The notes under the pieces: model-generated | Seen by the model: the letters and a program-made list of their open reading frames with translations, nothing else | The model's database searches: none | What the model was told of the DNA's origin: nothing | Part shown: positions 30,367 through 63,220 of the stretch, piece after piece | Layout: every line of letters starts with the position of its first letter | Numbering within the stretch: the first letter of the stretch is position 1 | Translations under genes and position numbers: made by a program | Source: Candidatus Gastranaerophilales bacterium | Lineage (GTDB): Bacteria > Cyanobacteriota > Vampirovibrionia > Gastranaerophilales > Gastranaerophilaceae | Direction: 5' to 3' | NCBI GenBank assembly: GCA_028693235.1 | Contig: JAQUVW010000005.1 | Coordinates: 124,001-188,000, forward strand | DNA: 64,000 nt

Positions 30367-31202
30367 AGAAAAAAATAGCGTTTATAATATTATTGATTTT
30401 TGTAATTTGCGGGATTTATTATTACTATAACCGTCCAACAAATTTAAATGAATTAACTCTGTTCGGGAATGTAGAAATAAGGCAGGTCGATTTGAGTTTT
30501 CAAGTCGGTGGCAAAATATCTCAAATGTATGTTGAAGAAGGCGACTCCATCAAAAAAGGTGATTTGATAGCCTCCTTAGATGACAAAGATTATGCTGCTA
30601 ATTTTAAAAAGGCTGTAGCAGAAGTTGAAAAGGCAGCTGCTGCAAGTAAAAATGCACAAGATATTTATGATAGAAAAAATCCCCTCTGTGATGACAACAC
30701 AATTTCGCAAGAAGAATGTGACGCTATAACCAATAATAAAGCAGAATCAGAAGCTTCTTATTCTGCTGCCATAGCCAATAAAATTTATGTCAAAAATCAA
30801 TGGGATTATACGAAAATTTTTGCACCTGAAAACGGAATTATAACAGTCAGAGTTCAAGAGCCGGGGGCTACTGTTCAAAAAGGACAACCAGTTTGCACTT
30901 TATCAAAAAGCAAGCCGATTTGGATTAGAGCTTATGTGTCTGAAAAAGATTTAGGAAATATTAAATACGATATGAAAGCAAAGGTTTTGACAGATGCTAT
31001 TGACCCTAAAACAGGCAAAAAACGTGAATATGTAGGTCGAATAGGTTACATTTCTCCTGTTGCTGAATTTACCCCAAAAACAGTTCAGACAGAAGATTTA
31101 AGAACGGATTTGGTCTATAGAATAAGAGTTTATGTCGATGACTTTGATGCGTTTTTGCGTCAAGGAATGCCTACAACTATAAAAATAGATTTGAAGGAGT
31201 AA
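30363..31202 (+). CDS. HlyD-family periplasmic adaptor (YbhG-like)
   Basis: The 279-residue protein has one N-terminal membrane anchor (IAFIILLIFVICGIYYYY). The lipoyl halves are FQVGGKISQMYVEEGDSI and GIITVRVQEPGATVQKG, and a short helical hairpin lies between them. A beta-barrel domain follows (PIWIRAYVSEKDLGNIKY). Adaptors of this class bridge an inner-membrane ABC pump to a TolC channel. Its place between the outer-membrane factor and the ATPase fits that role. Confidence 0.92.
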   Translation: MKKKIAFIILLIFVICGIYYYYNRPTNLNELTLFGNVEIRQVDLSFQVGGKISQMYVEEGDSIKKGDLIASLDDKDYAANFKKAVAEVEKAAAASKNAQDIYDRKNPLCDDNTISQEECDAITNNKAESEASYSAAIANKIYVKNQWDYTKIFAPENGIITVRVQEPGATVQKGQPVCTLSKSKPIWIRAYVSEKDLGNIKYDMKAKVLTDAIDPKTGKKREYVGRIGYISPVAEFTPKTVQTEDLRTDLVYRIRVYVDDFDAFLRQGMPTTIKIDLKE

Positions 31203-31205
31203 AAT

Positions 31206-32693
31206 TTGTCTTTAGCAGTTGAGGTCAAAAATTTATCAAAATCTTTTGGTCAGGTCAAAGCTATCGATGATTTGTCTTTAAATGTCAAAAAAGGGCAAAT
31301 AACAGGTCTGATTGGAGCTGACGGTTCTGGAAAGACAACATTATTGCGGTTGATAATCGGTTTTTTGCTTCCAGACAATGGCTCTATTGTGTCATTGGGG
31401 CTTTCTCCTGAAAAACAAAAAGCTTTGTTGAATAAAAAAATAGGTTATATGCCACAAAAATTCGGGCTATATGAGGATTTGACGGTAATAGAAAATCTTA
31501 AATTATATGCTGATTTGAAAAATATTCCTTATGATTTTGAAAAACTTTTAAAATTTACTGATTTAGAACGTTTTCAAGACAGGCTTGCCGGTAAACTCTC
31601 AGGTGGTATGAAGCAGAAATTGGGGCTTGCGTGTGCTTTGCTGGGTGAACCTGAGTTCTTGGTTTTAGATGAGCCATCTGTCGGCGTTGACCCGATTTCA
31701 AGACGTGAACTTATGCAACTTGTCAGAGATTCGATAACTCCTGAAACAACAGTGCTTTGGTCAACTGCTTATTTAGATGAGGCTCAAAGTTTTGACGAGG
31801 CGGTTATTTTGGATAAAGGCAAGGTTATTTATGATGGGAAACCTGCTGATTTAGCAACAGAGCCAAAAGAGTTTGAGGCTAAAGTTATTGAGCTTATGGG
31901 CGGGTATGATGAGTCAGAATCTTTGATAGCAAAACATTTTGAATGTAATGACTGTTCTGTCGAGTGTCCTGTTCAGGCTCTTGATTTATGCAAAAAATAC
32001 GGTGATTTTTATGCTGTTAAAAATAACACTTTTCATATAAAAAAAGGTGAGATATTTGGACTTTTAGGTCCAAATGGTGCAGGGAAATCTACTTCTTTTA
32101 AAATGATGTGTGGTTTGACTAAACCGACTGCGGGAACTGCCAAAATCAATAATATTGATATATTGGAAAATCCTTCAAAGGCTCGTTCAAAACTTGGTTA
32201 TATGGCCCAAAAGTTTTCTTTGTACGGAGATATGACGTTGAGAGAAAATCTACTCTTTTTTGCAGGAATATATGGAATTGGTCTGCTAAATCGGGCAGAA
32301 AGAGTAAATGAAATTATTAAAATTTTTGGCTTTCAAAATATGCAAAATCAGCAGGCAAAGGATTTGCCTTTGGGGCTTAAACAGCGTCTTTCACTGGCGT
32401 GTGCACTTATTCATGAGCCACCTATTCTTTTTTTAGATGAACCCACATCAGGAGTTGATGTAGTTGCAAGAAAAGAGTTTTGGAAGCATATAAAAGGTTT
32501 GGCGGCTAAAGGCGTTACGATACTTGTCACGACTCACTTTATGGACGAGGCTGAATATTGCGACAGGATTAGTCTTTTTTATAGAGGGGAAACGATTGCT
32601 ATAGGAACACCGGCAGAGCTTAAAAGAAAGGCTAACGCTAATACTATGCAAGATGCTTTTATCAATTTGATTGAGGAGCATGATGCTTTATGA
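31206..32693 (+). CDS. ABC exporter ATPase with two nucleotide-binding domains (YbhF-like)
   Basis: The 495-residue protein carries two ATPase domains in tandem. The first has Walker A GADGSGKTT, signature LSGGMKQK and Walker B FLVLDEPSVGVDP. The second has GPNGAGKST, a degenerate signature LPLGLKQR, and ILFLDEPTSGVD. A CxxC..C stretch (CNDCSVECP) links them. Translation starts at TTG 31206, behind AAGGAGT. With the two permeases downstream it should energise a tripartite efflux pump. The end overlaps the first permease by 4 bases. Confidence 0.94.
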   Translation: MSLAVEVKNLSKSFGQVKAIDDLSLNVKKGQITGLIGADGSGKTTLLRLIIGFLLPDNGSIVSLGLSPEKQKALLNKKIGYMPQKFGLYEDLTVIENLKLYADLKNIPYDFEKLLKFTDLERFQDRLAGKLSGGMKQKLGLACALLGEPEFLVLDEPSVGVDPISRRELMQLVRDSITPETTVLWSTAYLDEAQSFDEAVILDKGKVIYDGKPADLATEPKEFEAKVIELMGGYDESESLIAKHFECNDCSVECPVQALDLCKKYGDFYAVKNNTFHIKKGEIFGLLGPNGAGKSTSFKMMCGLTKPTAGTAKINNIDILENPSKARSKLGYMAQKFSLYGDMTLRENLLFFAGIYGIGLLNRAERVNEIIKIFGFQNMQNQQAKDLPLGLKQRLSLACALIHEPPILFLDEPTSGVDVVARKEFWKHIKGLAAKGVTILVTTHFMDEAEYCDRISLFYRGETIAIGTPAELKRKANANTMQDAFINLIEEHDAL

Positions 32694-44046: not shown

Positions 44047-44171
44047 ATAAACTCCTAACTGGTATTCAAACACTTTCTTTTCTAATTATAGCTATATTTA
44101 GCTACATATACAATACTTAAATAATAAAAAATTTACAGAAAGTTTTGTAGTTCTAATATATTTTATTCTGT

Positions 44172-44200
44172 TTGTCACATTTTCTATTCTGTCTGACAAA
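44172..44200. repeat. 29-bp inverted repeat, left copy
   Basis: TTGTCACATTTTC / ATTCTG / CTG / CAAA here matches the reverse complement of 44548-44576 at 26 of 29 positions. The two copies flank tRNA-fMet. A further shared block (AGAACTACAAAACT then TCTG) lies just outside each copy, leftward of this one and rightward of the other. Confidence 0.7.
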
Positions 44201-44279
44201 TTATACTTGCAAATCACAAAAGAATTAACGGCTATAAACTAAAAAGTATATTTAAATCAGCTGTTGCAAATACTGGTAC

Positions 44280-44325: not shown

Positions 44326-44402
<77 letters not shown>

Positions 44403-44444: not shown

Positions 44445-44547
44445 ATGCAAATTTTTGCCGAAAGTATAACAAAAGTATAACTTTTATTTTTATTATGGAT
44501 TTAGGGGAAGTTTGTTTTTTGCCCAAGTTTAGCAACTCTTTCTATAC

Positions 44548-44576
44548 TTTGACAGCCAGAATGGAAAATGTGACAA
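44548..44576. repeat. 29-bp inverted repeat, right copy, with adjoining 20-bp tandem units
   Basis: This is the right partner of 44172-44200. Within and just after it the unit GACAGCCAGAATGGAAAAT recurs as GACAAGCAGAATGGTAAAAT about 20 bp later. A weaker version, GACATTCAGAATGAA, lies near 44640. Spaced units of about 20 bp are typical of regulator sites and of MuA-type transposase binding sites. Confidence 0.65.
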
Positions 44577-44717
44577 GCAGAATGGTAAAATTTTAATTTT
44601 GTGAAAATCAAGTCGGAAGTTTTACCAAACTGGTTGTCAGACATTCAGAATGAACCTGATAAGAACTACAAAACTATCTGATAATTTTTCAATAAAAGTT
44701 GCTTAAGGTTTAATATA

Positions 44718-44870: not shown

Positions 44871-45728
44871 ATGAAGAATTTACTTATGGAAATAAAACAA
44901 TTAGCTCAAAAAGGAATGGAGAATACAATTATTTCAAATGACGTCCAAAATAAAGATATATTTTTAAGCATATTGTTAAAATCCGAAGTCGCAATAAGCA
45001 AAATTGGAGACAATTTTAATAATTCAATTGGTTTTTCCGAAAGACCTGAAAATAATAGAACTTACGAACGCATAGATGAAGAATTAAAAAATGACATGTA
45101 TTTAATTGCCTATTGCTTTAGCTACTATGAACATACTTCATTGTATCCACAATTTAGTCAAGATAAAGCTTTTGAAGTTGCGGCTACAAAGTTGGGGGTA
45201 AAGAAAACCACTCTTAAAAACACCCGTGACTGGTTTGATGGGCACAATGACAGCCATCGTAGAGGATGGTGGCAAGCTCCACTACCTGAAGATATGCAAA
45301 ATTTTAGAGATGTTTACGATAAGAAAAAAAGGGAAGATATCCTCAATGAAGCAAGAATGATATTGGATACTTTAAGCGTGAGTGACGGCAAAAATATTTC
45401 CTTCGGACAAAAATTAAAAAGTGAAAAATATCATGGCAAATTTTTTAAAAAAGAGGAGATTGAAGAATTTATAAATATCGTAATAAATGAATCTCCAACA
45501 ATTGCTAAAGATTTATTAGATCAGTGTTCAAAAAGAACATTTGAGAAGTGTTATGATCTTCTAGCATCTTCGTACAAAGAATCAACAGAAAAAATCGCAC
45601 AGCAAATAAAAAAGTATGATTCCAAAGTTGCGTCTAGTTCAGACTTTTCTTTATGGATTAGAGCTCGATTTATGCAAGAGATTTTTAATAATAACCTAGA
45701 GAGTGAAGCATTAAATTTGACCAAATAA
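44871..45728 (+). CDS. protein of unknown function, possible restriction/defence-related
   Basis: The 285-residue soluble protein has a strong AAGGAG ribosome site. Residues about 70-145 (MYLIAYCFSYYEH, AFEVAATKLGVKKTTLKNTR, then WFDGHNDSHRRGWW) recall the helical N-terminal recognition region of some HNH-type restriction enzymes. No nuclease motif follows. The C-terminal half is helical (EEFINIVINESPTIAKDLL). I cannot assign a family. Two perfect palindromes precede it, so it may be tightly controlled. Confidence 0.65.
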   Translation: MKNLLMEIKQLAQKGMENTIISNDVQNKDIFLSILLKSEVAISKIGDNFNNSIGFSERPENNRTYERIDEELKNDMYLIAYCFSYYEHTSLYPQFSQDKAFEVAATKLGVKKTTLKNTRDWFDGHNDSHRRGWWQAPLPEDMQNFRDVYDKKKREDILNEARMILDTLSVSDGKNISFGQKLKSEKYHGKFFKKEEIEEFINIVINESPTIAKDLLDQCSKRTFEKCYDLLASSYKESTEKIAQQIKKYDSKVASSSDFSLWIRARFMQEIFNNNLESEALNLTK

Positions 45729-45798
45729 AAATTATTTTAAAAATAGTGTTATAAAATTAGATATTAAACAATTGGAGGACAAAATGAATAAAAAAAAT

Positions 45799-46506
45799 GG
45801 GGCTTGACCAGAAGATTCTAAGATTCAGTAATAGCTTGAAACATCATTTTGTATAAATCCTTGTTTCTATTGTTAAATCTAAACTCTGACTCTTTTAAGT
45901 GTAACAAAAATTCTTCCTTTTTAAGTCCGTAAAATTTTGCTAATCTCATTTTACAATATCCCCAAAAACTTTCAATACCATTGATGTGATTTTTACCTCT
46001 TGCAAATTCCTTAGAATGGTTGATACGGTAGTGCTTGTAGCCACTTATTGACAGTTTATTGTAAGCCCTAAAACTATCAGTATAAACAACGGAATCCAAC
46101 TTGATTTTGTTTTGTACAATGTCTAGAAGCGTTTCTGACGACGAATTAGGAATGATTTGAGTATAGACCTTACCATTGCGTTTTAAAATGCCAAAAACAG
46201 GTATCTTGTTCTCTGAGCCACGACCTCTTTTCCCTTTATGATGTTTTCCGCCAAAGTAGCTTTCATCCAGCTCTAATTCACCTTCAAAGCCATTTTCTGA
46301 TTCGCAAGATTGTAAAATTTTCTCTCGGAATAATTGATAATACTTATTAATAGTCTTTCTATTTAACTTCATGATTTTAGCTGTTTGCGTTGCTGTTAAA
46401 TCTTGTGAAAAGTAAAAAAGTATTTTTTTTATTTTATATTGACTTATCTTTGAGTATTTGAACATATTTTCATCCTTTCATGAAATCTATGTTCTGGTCA
46501 AGCCCC
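45799..46506 (-). mobile_element. IS1595-family insertion sequence, complete, 708 bp
   Basis: Both ends carry GGGGCTTGACCAGAA as inverted repeats (45799 rightward; 46506 leftward). The 8-bp direct repeats AAAAAAAT flank it exactly (45791-45798 and 46507-46514), the duplication size expected for IS1595. It carries a single transposase gene. Intact ends, duplication and transposase suggest a recent insertion. Confidence 0.95.
45818..46465 (-). CDS. IS1595-family (ISXO2-like) transposase
   Basis: The 215-residue transposase has an N-terminal helix-turn-helix (TATQTAKIMKLNRKTINKYY). The ISXO2-like catalytic region has Asp in ELDESYFGGKHHKG, Asp in VVYTDSFRAYN, and the C-terminal HINGIESFWGYCKMRLAKFY block. 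It lacks the zinc ribbon of larger members, as in the IS1016-like subgroup. It appears intact. Confidence 0.95.
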   Translation of the reverse strand: MFKYSKISQYKIKKILFYFSQDLTATQTAKIMKLNRKTINKYYQLFREKILQSCESENGFEGELELDESYFGGKHHKGKRGRGSENKIPVFGILKRNGKVYTQIIPNSSSETLLDIVQNKIKLDSVVYTDSFRAYNKLSISGYKHYRINHSKEFARGKNHINGIESFWGYCKMRLAKFYGLKKEEFLLHLKESEFRFNNRNKDLYKMMFQAITES

Positions 46507-46846
46507 AAAAAAATTTATTACTATTAATTATACTATTATCTACAGCTTCGAATGCTTTTGCTGATTCATTTAGTCGACCATTTGAAACCGTGGATGAAGC
46601 ACGTGCAAGGCATAGTGCAGAAAATTATAATACCTATAAAAATAATAATTATCAGGCACCTCTCGGTGGGTATTCATCAAAACTAGGCGACCCTCAACCA
46701 CAAGGAACTTTGCAGCCTGGCTATGTAAATAATGGGCTAAATACTAATTCTAATTATGGGAATTTCAATAAAAAAAATAATAATTACGGGTGGTAAATCT
46801 AAGTATTGTTAGTTATCAATTCATCATGCACAATAGGAGGTGATAT

Positions 46847-47221
46847 ATGAAAAGAATTTTAGCACTCATTGCTTTAAGTTTGCTTCTAACGCAAAATGCC
46901 CAAGCCAATGATAACGTAAATCCAAAAGGCACTTGGGATGGTAAGAGTAGTATTGCATATGAAGTGGTAACAATAAAACCGGAAATGAAAATTAGACCTA
47001 GCATCGATCCTGACACGAAAGTAGAATTTATTATTCTGCATAGCATAAAACTGTTTGATGGTAGTAATGGGAAAGGCAAAGCCGTTATTGATTTAGAAAT
47101 AATAGACTACAAGGGTAATCATACTTTTAAGCAATGTGAAAAATCATTGGAAGGCGGACACGGTTATTTTTATGAAGTAGTAAATGAAGAAACGGAAGCT
47201 AAGGGACAGATAATAAAATAA
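46847..47221 (+). CDS. small secreted protein of unknown function
   Basis: The 124-residue protein sits behind a near-perfect ribosome site (AGGAGGTGAT). It has a signal peptide (residues 1-20, ending AQA) and a mature beta-rich domain of about 100 residues (SSIAYEVVTIKPEMKIRP, AVIDLEIIDYKGNH). I do not recognise the family. It lies between the IS-split secreted gene and the phage repressor, and converges on the repressor gene with a 2-base gap. Confidence 0.7.
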   Translation: MKRILALIALSLLLTQNAQANDNVNPKGTWDGKSSIAYEVVTIKPEMKIRPSIDPDTKVEFIILHSIKLFDGSNGKGKAVIDLEIIDYKGNHTFKQCEKSLEGGHGYFYEVVNEETEAKGQIIK

Positions 47222-47223
47222 AT

Positions 47224-47922
47224 TTAATACCTGTCTTTTTTCCCACCCGACCATATAACTTTACCAATTATTTTAAAGTGTTCAGTTTCTAAATCTACTG
47301 TGAATGGTGAGTATTCTTGGTTTTTACTAACAACCTGAACTTTGTTGCCTGGGATTCTTTGCAGGAGTTTAACGTATAATTTGTCGTCAATACTCACAAC
47401 GTATGTTCCATCATTTGATAAATCGTTCATTGTTTCATTTACAATAATCAAGTCGCCGTCATTGATTTCGCCTGCCATAGAATTACCCTTTACGGTAAAA
47501 ACCATAAGGTGCTTTGGCGATGCAACTGTTATATCCGTAAGCCATTTTTGTGCAAATGCTATAAAATCTTTTGTTAATTCTCTTTCTTGGATTAATGAAC
47601 CATAACCTGCGGATGCCGCCATGTTTATTAAAGGTAAAAACACCATTTGTGATAAATCAACATTTGCAGGCAGAGCTGCCGATGAAGTTTCAGATGGAAA
47701 AACATCTCCTCTTCCGCTTAATAACCAATCAGGATTCACTTCCAATAAGTCAACAAGTGCTTGCAGATACAAAACACTTGGCTGTCTTTCGTTTAATTCG
47801 TAGGAATAGATAGTTCTTGCAGATACTTTTATGCCATTTTCTGCAAGTTTTTTAGAAACTTCTTCCACGGATAATCCATGTTCAGTTCTTGCTTTTTTAA
47901 TTCTGTATTGCAAGTTTGACAT
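47224..47922 (-). CDS. phage repressor, HTH plus S24 autoprotease (C-like)
   Basis: The protein has 232 residues from ATG 47922, where AAGGA is well placed. A longer frame extends upstream without support. It has an N-terminal XRE helix-turn-helix (LSVEEVSKKLAENG, SARTIYSYELNERQP). The S24 domain has a likely Ala-Gly cleavage site at 105-106 (AASAGYGS), Ser148 in GNSMAGEINDGD and Lys185 in YVKLLQR. Such repressors keep a prophage silent and cleave themselves on RecA-type induction. It is divergent from the early transposition genes. Confidence 0.92.
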   Translation of the reverse strand: MSNLQYRIKKARTEHGLSVEEVSKKLAENGIKVSARTIYSYELNERQPSVLYLQALVDLLEVNPDWLLSGRGDVFPSETSSAALPANVDLSQMVFLPLINMAASAGYGSLIQERELTKDFIAFAQKWLTDITVASPKHLMVFTVKGNSMAGEINDGDLIIVNETMNDLSNDGTYVVSIDDKLYVKLLQRIPGNKVQVVSKNQEYSPFTVDLETEHFKIIGKVIWSGGKKDRY

Positions 47923-47934
47923 TTTACACATTCC

Positions 47935-48165
47935 TTTTTTGTAAAGTATTTCACAAAATGCACATTTTTTCAACCCTCTTCTGAAATATTGTGTAATAGT
48001 TCTTAATAAATGCACAATACTTCATTACATTATCAATACTATTTTAGAGGCAATTTGCTTTCTTAGTCTTTTTGTAAAGAGTTTCACAGTTTATCAATTC
48101 CCCTTGACCTACTGCACGAATTGTCATATCCTATGAAATATCGTGCAGTATTCGAGTAGGGGAAA
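47935..48165. promoter_or_regulatory. repressor/early operator-promoter region
   Basis: Two direct repeats TTTTTGTAAAG-nn-TTTCACA lie near 47936-47955 and 48070-48089, each a partial palindrome. An inverted pair TATTGTG / CACAATA lies at 47987 and 48013. The perfect inverted repeat TACTGCACGA / TCGTGCAGTA (48110-48119, 48141-48150) straddles a candidate early promoter, TTGACC (48104-48109) and TATCCT (48127-48132). This looks like a lysogeny switch. Confidence 0.7.
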
Positions 48166-48366
48166 ATGAGTAAGAATTTAATCAGTATGAAATATAAAAT
48201 AGCACTATTAAGACTTGGAATCACCCAACGTGAAGCTGCAAAGACTCTTGGTTTTTCTGAAAGCTACATAAGTATGCTTGTTTCAGGACAAAGAAAAAAT
48301 AAAAAATTTAACGAATGGCTCAAAGAAAATGTTAGTCTTGAAGACTTCAAAGGAGTGACTCTTTGA
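48166..48366 (+). CDS. small HTH protein (Ner-position regulator)
   Basis: The 66-residue protein is essentially one helix-turn-helix (ITQREAAKTLGFSESYISML) and has GGGG upstream. In Mu the same position is held by Ner, which turns down early and repressor promoters. This one looks XRE-like. Its stop overlaps the TTG start of the transposase gene by 4 bases. Confidence 0.8.
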   Translation: MSKNLISMKYKIALLRLGITQREAAKTLGFSESYISMLVSGQRKNKKFNEWLKENVSLEDFKGVTL

Positions 48367-50306
48367 AGATTCAGGCTGAAAATATATGGTTAGAGATTGA
48401 AAACGTATGCAGTCTTACCGGTGAAACAAAAGAAACCGTAAGACGTAAATGTAAATCTCAAAAATATACATCTAAGTCTGAGCGTAGTGGCAAATTTGTA
48501 ACGTATTCGGTACTCTTATCAGCTTTGCCACAAAAAGTTCAAGAGATTTATTTTGAAAAAAATGCAGAACCTTCTGAATTAATAATTGATACTGGTGATA
48601 TTGATGGCTACTCACTTGCTCCGGCGTGGGCTAGAAAACAAGCTGACAAATATTTAGAGTTGATTTCTATTACTAAAAAAATGACGCATTCTCAGATTAA
48701 TGCATTTTTGCAGGTATGGAACAAAAAGTATCCGGAGAAAGCTTCAAGCTACACAAGAATACATGAAGCAAGAATGAAATATGAAAAATTCGGAATTTCT
48801 GCTCTTCTTTCAAAAAATGGCAATTCGATTAATAAAAAAGTCATTAAAGAAGAATATTATGAATACTATAAAAGCCTTTATTTAAAAGAAGGGGCTCCAT
48901 CGGCAAATTCTTGTTGGAGAATTACATTGGGATATGCAAAAGAAACTGATGATGTAGAAATTGCAAACTTTCCTTCTTGCAGAACTTTTGACAGACGACT
49001 AAGAAAAGAAGTACCAGAGCAAGCAATTTTTCTTGCAAGATACGGTGAAGCCGCTTGGAATAAAAAATATGCTTCATATATTCCAAGAGATTATTCAAAC
49101 ATCACCGCCGGAAGTTTTTGGGTATCTGATCACGCACAAATTGATGTTGCGGTGAATTTTAACGGAAGCGTTTGTTTCCCTTGGGTAACTGTTTTCAGAG
49201 ATATTAAATCTGCAAAATGGTTGGGATGGTTTTTACACGCTGAAAGCCCGAACTCTGACCATATTTTTCAATCATTTTATTACGGCGTTCTTTCTTTTGG
49301 ATTGCCAAATGATGTTTATCTCGATAATGGTAAAGATTATCGCTGTAAAGACTTTGCAGGTGGGAGAAGCGGTGCAATAAAAGTGGCGCATAATACATCA
49401 AAAGAAAATTCTTTGATGAAAAACTTAGGAATAAACGTGCATTTTGCATTGCCGTATAACGCACAAACCAAGCCGATTGAAAGAGATTTTCTAAAAGTAA
49501 AAACATACCTTTCAAAACATATGGTCGGCTACCGTGGTGGAAAAATTACAGAAAGACCTGAAAAATTAAAAACTGAAATAAAAAATGAGCAGATAATGCC
49601 ATTTGAAGAATTTAAAACAATATTTGACGATTTTATCACCAATGTTCTGAATAAAATGCCATCAAACGGCAAGGTGCTGCAAGGTAAATGCCCTGATGAA
49701 TTATGGGCTGAAGAGTATTCTGTTAAGAAAATAATCAGCAAAGATGCACTTAAGCTCTTCTGTATGCGAACTTCAAAAGATGTTTCAATCGGCAGAAACG
49801 GCGTTTATGATTCTCAACTACAAATTACATATTGGGATGAGTGGATGATTGCTAAAAAAGGCACAAAAGTCTACCTGAGAAGAGATATTAACGCATTCCA
49901 GGAAGCGTGGGTGTTTGATGCGGCAACAGAAGAATATTTAGGTATGGCAAACGCAAACCAAGCCGTTTCATTTATGGCAAAAACTAATATTGAAAAAGCT
50001 CAGTACAAAAAAGCAATTGAGGCAAAAAACAAAGAGAAAAAAGTTTTAAAATCGTACATCAAATGCAAGTATAATCCGACAAATGCAGAAATTGTGAACA
50101 ACTTGAAAAGCGGATTATCGAAAACTGATTTTGAAAGCAATCCTAAGATTTCAAAAATTACTAATACAAAAATGGATAAAGTGGTTAAAAGCGAGAAAAA
50201 ATCTACTTTTAAAGCCACAAAATATTTAACGCCAATCAAAGAAAAAGAAAAACTTTATCTCACAGAAACTGAGAAAAAGCGTGATATGGCGAAAAGGGCT
50301 ATGTAG
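48363..50306 (+). CDS. MuA-family DDE transposase
   Basis: The 647-residue protein starts at TTG 48363. The N-terminal Mu-type winged helix is at residues 5-65 (VCSLTGETKETVRRK), and an RNase H-fold catalytic core follows. The catalytic acidic triad is visible: Asp261 (HAQIDVAV), Asp321 (VYLDNGKDYR) and Glu373 (PIERDF). Spacing is close to that of MuA. A Mu C-terminal beta-barrel and a basic tail for MuB/ClpX contact follow. It joins transposon ends to target DNA by replicative transposition. It appears intact. Confidence 0.95.
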   Translation: MKIQAENIWLEIENVCSLTGETKETVRRKCKSQKYTSKSERSGKFVTYSVLLSALPQKVQEIYFEKNAEPSELIIDTGDIDGYSLAPAWARKQADKYLELISITKKMTHSQINAFLQVWNKKYPEKASSYTRIHEARMKYEKFGISALLSKNGNSINKKVIKEEYYEYYKSLYLKEGAPSANSCWRITLGYAKETDDVEIANFPSCRTFDRRLRKEVPEQAIFLARYGEAAWNKKYASYIPRDYSNITAGSFWVSDHAQIDVAVNFNGSVCFPWVTVFRDIKSAKWLGWFLHAESPNSDHIFQSFYYGVLSFGLPNDVYLDNGKDYRCKDFAGGRSGAIKVAHNTSKENSLMKNLGINVHFALPYNAQTKPIERDFLKVKTYLSKHMVGYRGGKITERPEKLKTEIKNEQIMPFEEFKTIFDDFITNVLNKMPSNGKVLQGKCPDELWAEEYSVKKIISKDALKLFCMRTSKDVSIGRNGVYDSQLQITYWDEWMIAKKGTKVYLRRDINAFQEAWVFDAATEEYLGMANANQAVSFMAKTNIEKAQYKKAIEAKNKEKKVLKSYIKCKYNPTNAEIVNNLKSGLSKTDFESNPKISKITNTKMDKVVKSEKKSTFKATKYLTPIKEKEKLYLTETEKKRDMAKRAM

Positions 50307-50314
50307 GAGGGGAA

Positions 50315-51193
50315 ATGAGCTTAGTAGAAGAATTAAAAGAATTATTAAAAAAGAAAAAATACGCTGTTTCATATGCGGCAAAGGCTATAAACGTGTCAAA
50401 TGCCACTTTGCACCTTTGGATTAATAATAACTACAAAGGCAACGTGAAAAAAATTGATGATGCAGTCGCAAATTTTATCGAAATTGAAAAATTGAGAGAA
50501 GGCAGAATCCGTGTAGATTTCGTCAGAACATCAATTGTAGATGATGTTTTCGATATTGCAAAAACATGCCACGTTGAAAATGAAATCGGCGTGTGCTGCG
50601 GTGATGCAGGAATCGGTAAAACTTATGCAGTTAAACGCTATGCAATCGACAATACCGATGTAATCTTAATCGAAGCAGATTTGGGCTACACTCCAAAAGT
50701 ATTATTCTCAGAGATTCATAAAAAGCTAGGCTTTGACGGCTGTGGCACTATTCACGGAATGTTTTTAGACATTATTGATAAATTAAAAGCATCGGGCCGT
50801 CTGATTATTATCGATGAAGCTGAACACTTGCCGTACAAGTCGCTTGAACTTTTAAGAAGAATCTACGACAAGGCTCGAGTCGGGATTTTACTTGTCGGGA
50901 TGCCACGCCTAATTATGAACCTTAAAGGCGAAAAAAGACAGTATGCACAGCTTTATTCAAGAGTCGGAATCGCAACTCGCTTGAATTCATTGGGTGATGA
51001 AGATAAAAAAGCGATAATATCTTCAATTTTGCCCAATTACAAATCAGTTTTTTCAACACTTTCTGATTATTGTGCAGGAAACACAAGAGTTTTGACCAAG
51101 TTATTAGTCAGAGCCGTTCGTATTGCCGAAATCAACAATATGGAAGTGAATGAAGATGTTTTGCAGGCTAGTATCAGCCAAATAATAATGTGA
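50315..51193 (+). CDS. MuB-like AAA+ target-selection ATPase
   Basis: The 292-residue protein has an N-terminal helix-turn-helix (YAVSYAAKAINVSNATLHLW) as in MuB. The AAA+ core has Walker A GDAGIGKT near residue 96 and Walker B RLIIIDEAEHL. MuB polymerises on DNA, presents targets to MuA and provides target immunity. It lies 8 bases after muA with GGAGG before the start. The related TnsC is also possible by fold, but the context favours MuB. Confidence 0.92.
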   Translation: MSLVEELKELLKKKKYAVSYAAKAINVSNATLHLWINNNYKGNVKKIDDAVANFIEIEKLREGRIRVDFVRTSIVDDVFDIAKTCHVENEIGVCCGDAGIGKTYAVKRYAIDNTDVILIEADLGYTPKVLFSEIHKKLGFDGCGTIHGMFLDIIDKLKASGRLIIIDEAEHLPYKSLELLRRIYDKARVGILLVGMPRLIMNLKGEKRQYAQLYSRVGIATRLNSLGDEDKKAIISSILPNYKSVFSTLSDYCAGNTRVLTKLLVRAVRIAEINNMEVNEDVLQASISQIIM

Positions 51194-51200
51194 GGGCAAG

Positions 51201-51344
51201 ATGGAAGACTATACAAAATTTGAACGAATACTACATATTTCACTGATAGTTCTAGCAATCTTTGTCCTAGGCGTTCAGTGCGGAATTCATCAAGGCAGAA
51301 AGCTACAAACGGAGGGCTATTATGAGCAATTTTATTCAAATTAA
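51201..51344 (+). CDS. 47-residue single-span membrane protein
   Basis: ATG 51201 follows GAGGGCAAG. The peptide has one hydrophobic helix (ILHISLIVLAIFVLGVQCGI) with an acidic N-terminus and a Lys/Arg-Tyr-rich C-terminus. It overlaps the gp16-like start by 23 bases. Small membrane proteins are common in this part of Mu-like phages, but I cannot assign it. Confidence 0.5.
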   Translation: MEDYTKFERILHISLIVLAIFVLGVQCGIHQGRKLQTEGYYEQFYSN

Positions 51345-51756
51345 GAAAATCCATACGCTGAAAAATATCCTCGGGTTGGAAGAAGAACTTTACAGAGATA
51401 TGCTACAAAGTTTTGGCGTCTGTAGCTCTAAAAACCTTACAGAAACTGAAGCTCAGATTTTTATAGAAATTCTTGAGGATAAAGTAAACCTGAAAGGCAA
51501 TAGCCACAAGAAATATGATGATTTTAAATCCAGGGACAGCTTAATGGCATCGCCGGCACAGCTCAGAAAAATTGAAGTTGTATGGAAAGATATGCACCGA
51601 AATATGGATAAAGATTCTGCTAAAAAATCGTTGAGAAGATTCATCAAAAAACAGTTTCATATCGAGGATATACGCTTCATTACAAAAATCAAAGCAGGAA
51701 AAATTATTGCAGTATTAGAAAAAATCAAAGTTAAAAAGTATTTAAATGCCCTTTAA
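51322..51756 (+). CDS. Mu gp16-like protein (DUF1018)
   Basis: The 144-residue protein has the gp16 pattern: IKKIHTLKNILGLEEELYRD then MLQSFGVCSSKNLTETEAQ near the N-terminus. It continues with ASPAQLRKIEVVWKDMHRN and a C-terminal KSLRRFIKKQFHIEDIRFIT. The family is found beside early genes in transposable phages; its role is unclear. It supports a Mu-type rather than Tn7-type element. Confidence 0.85.
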   Translation: MSNFIQIKKIHTLKNILGLEEELYRDMLQSFGVCSSKNLTETEAQIFIEILEDKVNLKGNSHKKYDDFKSRDSLMASPAQLRKIEVVWKDMHRNMDKDSAKKSLRRFIKKQFHIEDIRFITKIKAGKIIAVLEKIKVKKYLNAL

Positions 51757-52102: not shown

Positions 52103-52137
52103 CTGATGAGACCGGTACAAAAAAAGTGAGGATACTT

Positions 52138-52422
52138 TTGGATTGTAAAAAACCTTGGACTGAAAATATCACAATAGAAAATCTTCCAAATGAAGATTTA
52201 AAGATTATGGCTGCAGTTATAGGATTGGATGCAACCATAAAAATGATGTGCGAACTTCCGGGGATTATTATTTCTGTACCAAAAAACGCCACTCTACAAG
52301 CAAAAATTGACTATGTAAAACAGCACTATGACGGCACTAAAAAATCTCGTTATGAACTTGCAATGATGTGCGACTTGTCAGAAGGCTATATCTACCGTAT
52401 AGCAAGAAAAAGAAATGATTAG
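52138..52422 (+). CDS. Mor-like middle-gene transcription activator
   Basis: The protein has 94 residues from TTG 52138, placed six bases after GAGG; a GTG at 52126 is the alternative. It has the Mor/C shape: a beta-alpha dimerisation part (IMAAVIGLDATIKMMCELPG, GIIISVP), then a C-terminal helix-turn-helix (SRYELAMMCDLSEGYIYRIA). In Mu, Mor switches on the middle promoter that leads to late genes. Here no late genes are in view, which is odd. Confidence 0.88.
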   Translation: MDCKKPWTENITIENLPNEDLKIMAAVIGLDATIKMMCELPGIIISVPKNATLQAKIDYVKQHYDGTKKSRYELAMMCDLSEGYIYRIARKRND

Positions 52423-52472
52423 TCAGTTATTTAATCAGGTTGATATTGAAATTCATATTCAAATAATACAAA

Positions 52473-52727
52473 CTATTCATCAGTAAAACTGTAATCAAAA
52501 TCAATTTCTTTGAGTAAATCTTCAACCCTAACATCCAACATATATGCAATTCTCAATAATGTTGAAAATTTTAAATCAAATAATCCGTTTTCAACCCTGC
52601 TCCATGTAGCGGTAGTTACAAAACCTTTAGCTAAAACAAATTCGTTTAAAGATTTTGATTTAGCTAAACGCAGTTCTTTTATCTTTAAACCTAACTTTTT
52701 TAAATTTTCTTTATCATTCTGTTGCAT
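52473..52727 (-). CDS. XRE-family regulator
   Basis: The 84-residue protein is a single XRE helix-turn-helix (LNEFVLAKGFVTTATWSRVE, then LLRIAYMLDVRVEDLL). It reads leftward, against the island, and its upstream region has paired TGTAATG / CATTACA and repeated ATGTAAT, possible operator sites shared with the rightward gene at 52789. It could be the partner of an ImmA-type protease. Confidence 0.85.
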   Translation of the reverse strand: MQQNDKENLKKLGLKIKELRLAKSKSLNEFVLAKGFVTTATWSRVENGLFDLKFSTLLRIAYMLDVRVEDLLKEIDFDYSFTDE

Positions 52728-52788
52728 ATATGTAATGTTAGATGTAAATTAAATTATATTCATTACACGTATGTAATAGATTGGTGCT

Positions 52789-53262
52789 ATGAAACGAACT
52801 TTAATTTCAATACTATTAATAACTATTATGAGTCCAATATCAGCTCTGGCAGTGGCATTTGATTACGGCACAACAAGCGATGGCTATAAATTTGTAAAAC
52901 ATCAGCATAATGAAGCATCATATCAAAACGCCTGGTGCAGTGCTCATGGTGGAGTTACAGAGTATGAAAACAAGGATTTCACAAGGGTTGATTGCTTAAC
53001 CTCCACAAATGCAGTTGAATTTGATTTTGCAAATAAATGGGCCGAGAGCATCGGACAGGCTCTGCACTATCAATTAATGACAGGAAAGAGGGCAAAAGTT
53101 GTTCTGATTTTAGAATACCCGCAAAAGCAAATGGTTTACTACAAAAGAGTTAAAGCCCTGGCACAAAAGTACAATTTTGATGTTGAATATGTGACACCTG
53201 CAATACTACATTTAAAAAACGGACAATGCTCCAATCCTGAGTGCAAATGCCACAGGAAATAG
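52789..53262 (+). CDS. exported nuclease-like protein
   Basis: The 157-residue protein has a signal peptide (residues 1-20, ending ALA). The body contains WCSAHGGVTEYENKDFTRVD, then CLTSTNAVEFDFANKWAES and IGQALHYQLMTGKRAKVVLI. This matches a widespread bacterial protein family with a D ... ExD ... K arrangement that resembles the PD-(D/E)XK nuclease fold. Paired Cys residues and a C-terminal CSNPECKC may bind metal or form disulphides. Nuclease activity is inferred. Confidence 0.65.
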   Translation: MKRTLISILLITIMSPISALAVAFDYGTTSDGYKFVKHQHNEASYQNAWCSAHGGVTEYENKDFTRVDCLTSTNAVEFDFANKWAESIGQALHYQLMTGKRAKVVLILEYPQKQMVYYKRVKALAQKYNFDVEYVTPAILHLKNGQCSNPECKCHRK

Positions 53263-53514
53263 CATCTTGTCATAAATTTTAATATAAAATATATAACGAT
53301 ATGCTTGTGATAATATAAAATAAATAAGCATATTTTATGGTAAAAGAATTTGTAGGTCTGTGTAATATGAAAATTTTATTAAAAAGGATTATAGCACATA
53401 TGGTATGATAAGCTCTAGTGTACATTTGTCGTATCTTTGGTTATAAAAACTTGCATGTAAAGACATTCAAGAAACGTCGAAAAATAAATACAAAAAGTAT
53501 GGAAAGGAGTTTAA

Positions 53515-59896: not shown

Positions 59897-61524
59897 TAGA
59901 TAAAGATTTTACGACAAAAACCAAAGAATTAATTGATGGACTAAAAAGCACTTGTGCCAATTTCGGATTAGGTAATGATGGCAATGAATTTAAGATAATA
60001 ACTCAAATATTTCTATATAAATTTATAAACGATAAGTTTGGATATGAAGTAAAAAAAATTGACCAAAAGCTTGCAAAAGCTGATGAATGGGAAGAAGAAA
60101 TTGCTAAATATTCAGATAACGAATATGAATTACTTTTGATGCAATTACCTGAATCATCTGCTCAACTTAAAAAAGAACATTATTTGTCTCATTTATATAG
60201 CATTCAAAATGAGGCCGATTTTGCAAAAACTTTTGATGATACCCTTAGAGACATCGCCATTTTTAATACAGATATATTTTCTGTCAAAACAGAAAGCGGA
60301 GCAAAGGTTACGTTGTTTGATGAATTGACCAATTTTATAACTGATCCGTCTCAAAGAAATAATTTTGCTAGAGCTTTAATCAATAAATTAATAAATTTTA
60401 ATTTCGAATCAGTATTTAACAAAAAATACGACTTCTTTGCTACAATATTTGAATATTTAATTAAGGACTACAATACTGATAGTGGAGGTAAATATGCAGA
60501 ATATTATACTCCTCATTCAGTAGCAAGAGTAATGGCTGAAATCCTTGTTGATAAAAATGTTAGCAATGTAAAGTGCTATGATCCTTCAGCAGGTTCAGGA
60601 ACCTTGCTGATGTGCTTAGCTCACGAAATAGGTGAAGATAAATGCTCTATATTCTCCCAAGACATTTCCCAAAAATCATCAGGGATGCTGCGTTTAAACC
60701 TTATATTGAATAATTTGGTACATTCTATTCAAAATATCATACAAGGTAACACTATACTGAAACCAGAACACAAAGAAAATGATAACACGCTTAGAAAGTT
60801 TGATTATGTAGTTTCTAATCCACCTTTTAAACTTGATTTTAGTGATTACAGGGATGATTTGGATACAAAAGCAAATAAAGAAAGATTTTTTGCGGGTATT
60901 CCAAACGTACCAAATAAGAAAAAAGAATCTATGGCAATTTATTTAATGTTTTTACAACATATTATTTATTCGCTTAAAGATACAGGTAAAGCAGCTGTTG
61001 TAGTACCTACAGGATTTATTACCGCACAAAGTGGAATAGAGCTAAAAATAAGACAAAAACTTGTTGACGAAAAAATGCTCAAAGGTGTAGTTTCTATGCC
61101 TAGCAATATCTTCGCAAGTACAGGAACTAACGTTTCAGTTATATTTATTGATAAAACAAATAAAGATGGTAATGTCATTTTAGTTGATGCATCTAAACTG
61201 GGAATAAAAATAAAAGAAGATGGTAAAAATCAAAAAACAGTGCTATCTGATGAAGAAGAACAAAAAATAATAAATATATTTAAGAAACAAAAAGAAATTG
61301 AAGATTTATCAGTTATTGTAACTTATGATACTATTAAGAAAAAAAACTATTCTTTTAGTGCCGGACAATATTTTGAGATAAAAATAGACTCTATTGATAT
61401 TACTCATGAAGAGTTTAAAGAAAAAATGGACTCTTATAAATCAAACCTAAATAAATATTTTGTAGAATCAAATGAATTACAGAAAAAAATACAAATTCAA
61501 CTGGATGGAGTACTGTATGAATAG
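59893..61524 (+). CDS. hsdM: type I DNA methyltransferase subunit M
   Basis: The protein has 543 residues from ATG 59893, overlapping the hsdR stop. It has an N-terminal helical HsdM domain and the SAM-binding motif DPSAGSGTLL near residue 229. The catalytic N6-adenine motif NPPF lies near 308 (YVVSNPPFKLDF). It methylates adenine at the sequence set by HsdS and protects host DNA. It overlaps hsdS by 8 bases. Confidence 0.95.
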   Translation: MIDKDFTTKTKELIDGLKSTCANFGLGNDGNEFKIITQIFLYKFINDKFGYEVKKIDQKLAKADEWEEEIAKYSDNEYELLLMQLPESSAQLKKEHYLSHLYSIQNEADFAKTFDDTLRDIAIFNTDIFSVKTESGAKVTLFDELTNFITDPSQRNNFARALINKLINFNFESVFNKKYDFFATIFEYLIKDYNTDSGGKYAEYYTPHSVARVMAEILVDKNVSNVKCYDPSAGSGTLLMCLAHEIGEDKCSIFSQDISQKSSGMLRLNLILNNLVHSIQNIIQGNTILKPEHKENDNTLRKFDYVVSNPPFKLDFSDYRDDLDTKANKERFFAGIPNVPNKKKESMAIYLMFLQHIIYSLKDTGKAAVVVPTGFITAQSGIELKIRQKLVDEKMLKGVVSMPSNIFASTGTNVSVIFIDKTNKDGNVILVDASKLGIKIKEDGKNQKTVLSDEEEQKIINIFKKQKEIEDLSVIVTYDTIKKKNYSFSAGQYFEIKIDSIDITHEEFKEKMDSYKSNLNKYFVESNELQKKIQIQLDGVLYE

Positions 61525-63220
61525 GGTTTTACTAAAAGATTTAATTGAAATAAAGAATGGTACTGATTACCGGAATTTAGAAGAAGGGGATATTCCTGTA
61601 TATGGAACTGGTGGGTATATGACTTCCGTAAACAAATATCTGTATGATGGAGTTTCAATACTTTTACCAAGGAAAGGCTCTCTTAAAAATATTTCTTTTG
61701 TTGAGGGGAAATTCTGGACCGTTGATACAATGTACTGGTCTATTGTAAATAAACACCTCATAAACCCTTATTTTCTTTTTTATTATTTAAAAACTTTGAA
61801 TTTTGAGGCCCTTTACACAGGCTCAACGCTACCAAGTATGACAAATAGTGCATATTACTCAATACCAATATTAGTCCCATCTATAGACTCTCAAGATAAG
61901 ATTGCAAACCTTTTATATGCCATTGATAACAAAATTAAAATTAATAGAGAAATAAATTTAGAACTTGAATCTATGGCTAAAACTTTATACGAGTATTGGT
62001 TTGTTCAATTTGATTTTCCAGATAAAAACGGTAAACCGTATAAATCTGCTGGCGGCGACTTGGTATATAATGAAGCTCTTAAGCGTGAAATTCCTAAAGG
62101 TTGGAAAGTTGACAATATACAAAAATATTGCAATATAATTGATTGCCTTCATAGTAAAAAGCCAGACTATAATTATGAATCAGCTGAATTTTATTTATTG
62201 CAATTAGAAAACTTGCAAGAAAATGGATATATTGATGTAACAGACAAACATTATATTTCTGGAGTAGATTACATAAATTGGACAAAAAAAATAGAAATTA
62301 AAGAGAACGATTTTGTTTTTACCAATGCGGGCAGAGCTGGTGCTTTTGGCAAAATACCAGGAGAAATAAAATGTGCTTTAGGCAGAAATTTTACAGCCGT
62401 TAGACCTATAAATATATCCCCTTATTACTTAAGATTGTATTTTAGTAGCACTGACATGGAAAAGCAAATTATAAGCAATTTAGATTGTGGAGCATTTTTT
62501 AAGAGTTTTAACGTTAAATCAATCAAATTAATAAATCTTTTAATTCCTGAAAATGAAATTTTGAACAAATTTATCAATATAGTAAAACCTATTATCAAAA
62601 AAATTGAAAATAATAATGCAGAGGATTCTAAGCTAGCTGCACTTAGAGATTTTTTACTTCCAATGCTTATGAATGGACAAATAACGATTAAAAAAGATTT
62701 AGGGCAAACTAGCAATAATGAGGCGTTATCTTCAGATAAGTTAATAGAGGAAGCTATTTATCAATATAACAATAATAGATGTATAGATATTGAATCTATC
62801 GCCAGATCAAATGATATGGTTGTATATAAAGATGATTCGGTAAAAAAAGCTGAGATTAGTTTTAATAAAGAAAAAGGATTATGGCAAATTGCAGTAAGAG
62901 AGCCTCAAGATAGTTTCTCGATTGCTCATGAAATAGCCCACGCCGTATTACATCCTGAATTTGTAAAACAAGCAGCTGTAGCAAGAAAAGATGAGCATTC
63001 TCTACCTAAAGAGAAAGAGATTGAAGCTGATTCTTTAGCTGCCGAAATCTTAATGCCAGAAGAATGTATTTTAGAATATTTAAAAGATGAAAATATTGCT
63101 GATAATTCATTTCTGGACAAAAAGTTTGTAGAAAAATCAGCTAAAAAATTTAATGTTGCACCGTCATCAATGAATATGAGGTTAAAAACTTTAGGATACA
63201 AAGTTCCTTATATAAGCTAA
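61517..63220 (+). CDS. hsdS: type I specificity subunit S fused to an ImmA/IrrE metallopeptidase domain
   Basis: The protein has 567 residues from ATG 61517, behind GGAG; a longer start 15 codons earlier lies inside hsdM and has no support. Residues 1-165 and about 195-385 are two target-recognition domains with the central conserved helix (NREINLELESMAKTLYEYWF) and the second helix (SKLAALRDFLLPMLMNGQI). From about residue 410 the chain continues into an ImmA/IrrE domain: SIAHEIAHAVLHPEF (HExxH at 471-475), EKEIEADSLAAEILMP with the third-ligand Glu, and a C-terminal helix-turn-helix-like segment. There is no stop or frameshift between the parts. ImmA/IrrE proteases cleave XRE-type repressors. 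Confidence 0.9.
   Translation: MNRVLLKDLIEIKNGTDYRNLEEGDIPVYGTGGYMTSVNKYLYDGVSILLPRKGSLKNISFVEGKFWTVDTMYWSIVNKHLINPYFLFYYLKTLNFEALYTGSTLPSMTNSAYYSIPILVPSIDSQDKIANLLYAIDNKIKINREINLELESMAKTLYEYWFVQFDFPDKNGKPYKSAGGDLVYNEALKREIPKGWKVDNIQKYCNIIDCLHSKKPDYNYESAEFYLLQLENLQENGYIDVTDKHYISGVDYINWTKKIEIKENDFVFTNAGRAGAFGKIPGEIKCALGRNFTAVRPINISPYYLRLYFSSTDMEKQIISNLDCGAFFKSFNVKSIKLINLLIPENEILNKFINIVKPIIKKIENNNAEDSKLAALRDFLLPMLMNGQITIKKDLGQTSNNEALSSDKLIEEAIYQYNNNRCIDIESIARSNDMVVYKDDSVKKAEISFNKEKGLWQIAVREPQDSFSIAHEIAHAVLHPEFVKQAAVARKDEHSLPKEKEIEADSLAAEILMPEECILEYLKDENIADNSFLDKKFVEKSAKKFNVAPSSMNMRLKTLGYKVPYIS

Follow-up and report, generated by a model that had tools for sequence, protein, structure and literature searches.

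Insertion sequences (ISs) of the IS1595 family usually make an 8-bp target duplication, and members of the IS1016 subgroup have a transposase without an N-terminal zinc finger (excerpts of PMC8101967). A described element of this subgroup, ISApl4, is 712 bp long, has the ends GGGGCTGTACTAGA and is preferably flanked by A/T-rich 8-bp repeats, and its catalytic motif follows the same pattern as the one reported below, with gaps of 53 and 24 (excerpts of PMC12561309). An element of this type was identified in the window (the whole 64,000-nucleotide stretch of Candidatus Gastranaerophilales DNA that was analysed), where it splits a gene for a small, presumably secreted protein. The event is an ordinary IS1016-type insertion in a probable prophage accessory gene and what is new here is the Mu-like setting of the split gene, which the initial annotation does not mention. 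A narrow search of the open-access literature found no article joining "Gastranaerophilales" and "insertion sequence", and those joining "Gastranaerophilales" and "prophage" were off topic by title.

The insertion sequence and its relatives

The IS, read directly from the window sequence, is 708 bp long (45799–46506, minus strand). Its ends form a perfect 15-bp inverted pair (GGGGCTTGACCAGAA; 15 of 15 bases match, and 17 of the first 18), located at 45799–45813 on the side of the transposase C-terminus (identical in loci L005, L010, and L013) and at 46492–46506 on the side of the N-terminus. An exact 8-bp duplication, AAAAAAAT, flanks the element at 45791–45798 and 46507–46514, which suggests an 8-bp staggered cut. 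Both the duplication and the perfect ends had been noted in the initial annotation and both are seen in the sequence. The bases just outside the ends (45798/46507) also pair, so that the inverted repeat could be one base longer and the boundary is ambiguous. In three relative IS copies in the genome G011 the base that precedes GGGG is A, not T; the boundary at GGGG is therefore favoured and ends of 16 bases are disfavoured, since the flanking base is not the same in the relative copies.

The element encodes a transposase of 215 amino acids (45818–46465, minus strand) that was identified from its open reading frame and domain matches and that contains the D67/D130/E165 motif, arranged as DESYFG(54)VYTD....Y(24)HINGIE.FW. 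The protein matches PF12762 (DDE_Tnp_IS1595) with an E-value of 1.9e-29 and NF033547 with an E-value of 3.3e-49 (167.7 bits against a cut-off of 75). PF12762 is the sole Pfam match at E 0.001 and no N-terminal zinc finger was found. The earlier assignment to IS1595 is borne out by the two matches, on which the element is a member of this family, and its ends, its length, the missing zinc finger and the catalytic motif all fit the IS1016 subgroup (the classification draws on sequence, domains, ends and the comparison with ISApl4).

Chance was considered as a source of the repeats. Exact 15-bp inverted pairs that are 200–2500 bp apart occur at one other distinct place in the window (30386–32156), and ten mononucleotide shuffles of the window produced 5, 1, 0, 0, 0, 1, 2, 0, 1, and 0 such pairs (10 in all). 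Two random 8-mers from the window are identical with a probability of ~7e-5, and the duplicated AAAAAAAT is of low complexity and is found 27 times within the window. The inverted ends alone or the duplication alone are thus weak evidence, and exact 15-bp inverted pairs are not rare in this AT-rich DNA. A chance repeat is nevertheless rejected as not credible, because the ends and the duplication coincide with an intact family-specific transposase that fills the interval, with homologues of the split gene that are continuous across the site and with an identical 15-bp end on three copies elsewhere, in another genome.

These three copies belong to G011, a genome of the same family; each is cut by a contig end and each carries the exact 15-bp end, which therefore provides independent support for the boundary of the IS. 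In the genome that contains the window, a DNA search (40 of 56 first-look candidates scored) and a protein search each found a single match to the IS. Among the 383 genomes of the family, 19 contain a transposase match at ≤1e-10 and four contain a match with at least 70% identity: the genome itself and, as partial matches, G011, G135, and G138. A genome from the same order (G040) carries a 72% match that is interrupted by four stops. No complete relative copy with both ends was paired by script across 11 loci, and no relative of the transposase was confirmed in IMG/VR. The result places an IS1016-type element in a genome whose family also includes Candidatus Gastranaerophilales metagenome-assembled genomes (MAGs).

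The split gene and its remnants

On the best explanation, an element of the IS1016 subgroup of the IS1595 family entered an A-rich stretch at codons 3–5 of a 98-codon gene for a small, presumably secreted protein, and transposition left AAAAAAAT on either side. When the flanks are joined over one copy of the duplication they read 98 residues and a stop, as had been claimed for the reconstructed protein. The 5′ piece (45784–45798, plus strand) consists of the start codon and four codons, preceded by a Shine–Dalgarno-like GGAGG (45774–45778, plus strand), and meets a stop inside the IS, so that the left piece as it now stands reads 7 residues (MNKKNGA). The 3′ piece (46515–46796, plus strand) contains 93 codons followed by a stop and covers the signal-peptide core and the mature protein. 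This remnant aligns with three intact proteins, two from Candidatus Gastranaerophilales MAGs (L036, 59% identity; L037, 60%) and one from an IMG/VR record (L038, 48%). In all three, a short basic start joins the hydrophobic core directly, exactly where the gene in the window breaks; the break had been placed within the signal peptide, and the homologues, uninterrupted there, confirm the split at the protein level. Overall, it is very likely that the IS inserted and split the gene as described.

An alignment-based search of the 383 genomes identified strong matches to the split protein in four (the genome itself, G102, G205, and G174) and marginal matches in five more (E-values of 7e-5 to 9e-4). 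L036 and L037 correspond to G102 and G205 (identical matches), which belong to the same family as the genome of the window, so that the host is related to these MAGs. The core NY..YKNN.YQAPLGGY...LG is invariant in four aligned sequences of the protein, and one G is changed in the copy of G174. The pN/pS ratio among the three intact homologues is ~0.5–0.9, calculated from 8, 9, and 13 differences, and is not informative about selection. The protein has no match in Pfam, NCBIfam, PHROGs or PADLOC and none in phage records, and the best match to a solved structure has an E-value of 0.31. The predicted structure of the remnant (mean pLDDT 52) consists of the signal helix and one further helix, and no function is read from the fold because the rest of the model is unstructured at low confidence.

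From its present sequence the split gene is most probably inactive, since the remaining 93 codons are cut off from the start codon and ribosome site and translation from the original start would yield only the 7-residue peptide. Expression could in principle have been rescued by the open frame of 112 amino acids that now runs from a TTG inside the IS across its right end (46458–46796, plus strand). Such a frame would supply a new N-terminus and retains the hydrophobic core, the AFAD region and the entire mature part, and a promoter-like match lies at 46439–46468, so that the protein might still be made and secreted. However, from the stop at 46440 to position 46515, upstream of the core, this frame contains no ATG or GTG, leaving TTG or rarer codons alone as starts; a script found no Shine–Dalgarno-like string between 46400 and 46520, and promoter-like matches in this region are no more frequent than expected by chance (19 against 19.0). 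Continued production from the hybrid frame is accordingly very improbable. The frame is probably not expressed as such, and its description in the initial annotation as an artefact is likely to be right given the TTG-or-rarer start and the missing Shine–Dalgarno-like string. It illustrates how automatic annotation could misread a gene.

That the ends, the duplication, the transposase and the remnant frame are all intact points to a recent insertion. An old insertion that is fixed in the lineage, with an intact duplication that reflects merely slow decay, would be compatible with the single copy found in the genome and with the search for an empty site, which found none at the DNA level: an exact 27-base piece of the flank had no match in IMG/VR, phage records gave no match and no genome of the same genus is listed among the 59 relatives. 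Such an age is quite unlikely against the perfect 15-bp ends, the exact duplication, the preserved transposase motif and a remnant that has no internal stop.

A Mu-like early region beside the split gene

The split gene sits immediately to the left of a Mu-like early region. Reading rightward, this region encodes a phage-type repressor with helix-turn-helix (HTH) and S24 peptidase domains (47224–47952, minus strand), a small HTH protein, a MuA-type transposase (48363–50306), a MuB-type ATPase (50315–51193, PHROG “DNA transposition protein”), GemA (51322–51756) and a late transcriptional activator (52126–52422, identified by a PHROG match and without a Pfam match), the last four on the plus strand. 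Four IMG/VR contigs that carry this MuA (L039–L042) share the segment from 47224 to ~52410–53330 in pieces of 78.5–83.2% DNA identity. One of the four records (G059) contains sheath, baseplate J and capsid genes and therefore represents a phage. To the right of the early region, L039–L042 contain helicase and methylase-like or sugar-related genes (named from reading frames). The contig of the window ends 2.65 kb past the window, shortly after a virion morphogenesis gene (L043; PF05069, 1.2e-31) and a D12-type methylase, the former being the sole virion gene found in this contig. Both genes are encoded on the minus strand and so run against the early genes, while in G059 the early and late genes share one direction. 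The continuity of the prophage up to the virion gene is therefore uncertain. Further observations within the window include an HsdS-type specificity protein fused to an IrrE-like M78 peptidase domain (61472–63220).

A protein of 157 amino acids with a signal-peptide-like start is encoded at 52789–53262. Its relatives show 83–85% identity in L039, L040, and L042 and 39% in L038, where the relative is encoded immediately before the split-gene homologue; RVDCLT and A.E.D.A.KWAE.IGQA..Y are invariant. The model of this protein (helix, three strands, helix, strand, helix, strand; block-mean pLDDT 80–95 over residues 41–140) has a fold that may resemble that of the PD-(D/E)XK nucleases. A fold search of the PDB returned nothing at E 0.001.

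In the window, the slot to the left of the repressor is occupied by three genes: one for a protein of 285 amino acids (44871–45728, plus strand), the split 98-residue gene, and one for a small protein of 124 amino acids with a signal-peptide-like start and its own AGGAGG (46847–47221, plus strand). The 285-residue protein has relatives in 19 of the 383 genomes, its own included, one of which (L107, in G024) lies between a GmrSD-type protein and an ADP-ribosylglycohydrolase. The 124-residue protein has no relatives in the other 58 of the 59 genomes. The same slot holds other genes in all four IMG/VR contigs: an Mrr-type enzyme (L039), an unnamed gene (L040), AbiH and an unnamed gene (L041), and an unnamed protein of 709 amino acids (L042). 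The accessory genes in this slot of the Mu-like contigs thus vary, and they include defence genes in two of the four.

The homologues of the split gene accompany mobile and defence genes. The L038 homologue is found in a record that carries a terminase gene. L036 has as neighbours the Gabija genes GajA and GajB and a McrBC-like pair (identified by reading), the larger member of which is called a type II restriction enzyme by PADLOC. The contig that encodes L037 is 14 kb long and also bears a MuA gene and what reads, from its frames, as a type I restriction-like module. In G174, the homologue (L082) is accompanied by a comparable pair, again read as McrBC-like, by a TniB-like ATPase and by a fragment that matches Mu transposases weakly (0.0013, which does not reach the Pfam cut-off).

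These surroundings make it probable that a Mu-like prophage carries the split gene as an accessory gene at its left end. Alternatively, the gene could belong to the chromosome or to another element beside the prophage. No left end of the prophage was located; the relative of the 285-residue protein in G024 lies away from Mu-type genes, in a genome without a MuA match, and the G102 homologue, 9–11 kb from a Mu-type transposase, is part of a defence island in which no structural phage gene was found among the 10 frames scanned against PHROGs, out of 35 listed around it. These observations would agree with a location outside the prophage, but in all four IMG/VR contigs the sequence continues to the left of the repressor, one homologue is in the terminase-bearing record, another is near the TniB-like ATPase and the Mu-transposase fragment, and two are on contigs with a MuA gene (C1 of G102 and C27 of G205). 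A non-prophage origin is on balance rather unlikely, and membership of the prophage remains the preferred reading. Repeats at 44551 and 44572 are the sole exact matches to their pattern in the genome, and the repeats at 44551–44585 are candidates for the left end. Separately, imperfect inverted arms (88%; 44165–44205 and 44543–44583) surround a tRNA gene (Met, 44326–44402), the only one in the window, with a motif repeated at a 21-bp spacing on each side, and may represent a prophage end or another element.

It is conceivable, though doubtful, that the split protein represents a family of small secreted proteins new to the literature, borne in Gastranaerophilales by Mu-like prophages, by one other phage and within defence islands, and that it may have an envelope role in the lysogen, for example against further phage infection. 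If this were true, the IS would have disarmed a prophage-borne trait.

Comparison with known elements and phages

The early region resembles phage Mu and Mu-like transposable phages in that the repressor, MuA, MuB, GemA and the late activator are in the same order. It differs in that the genes that flank it vary from contig to contig and in that the only virion gene found in the contig is located beyond the window and in the opposite orientation. Among IS1595-like elements on PLSDB plasmids, the transposases of ISEc69 and ISEc75 show protein identities of 47.3% and 44.6% over 85% and 89% of the transposase, respectively, in a comparison that covers the transposase alone; their hosts are different.

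The comparison with ISApl4 is based on the features described for that element in the excerpts of PMC12561309. ISApl4 differs in its host (Actinobacillus pleuropneumoniae), in ends that diverge past GGGGCT and in its abundance (39 copies in AP_123, one found here). The two elements are nevertheless alike in length (712 and 708 bp here) and in the length of the transposase gene (654 and 648 bp here), both have perfect ends that begin with GGGGCT together with A/T-rich 8-bp repeats, which ISApl4 prefers, and both share the same DDE motif, with first two gaps of 53 and 24 in ISApl4 and of 54 and 24 in the element described here.
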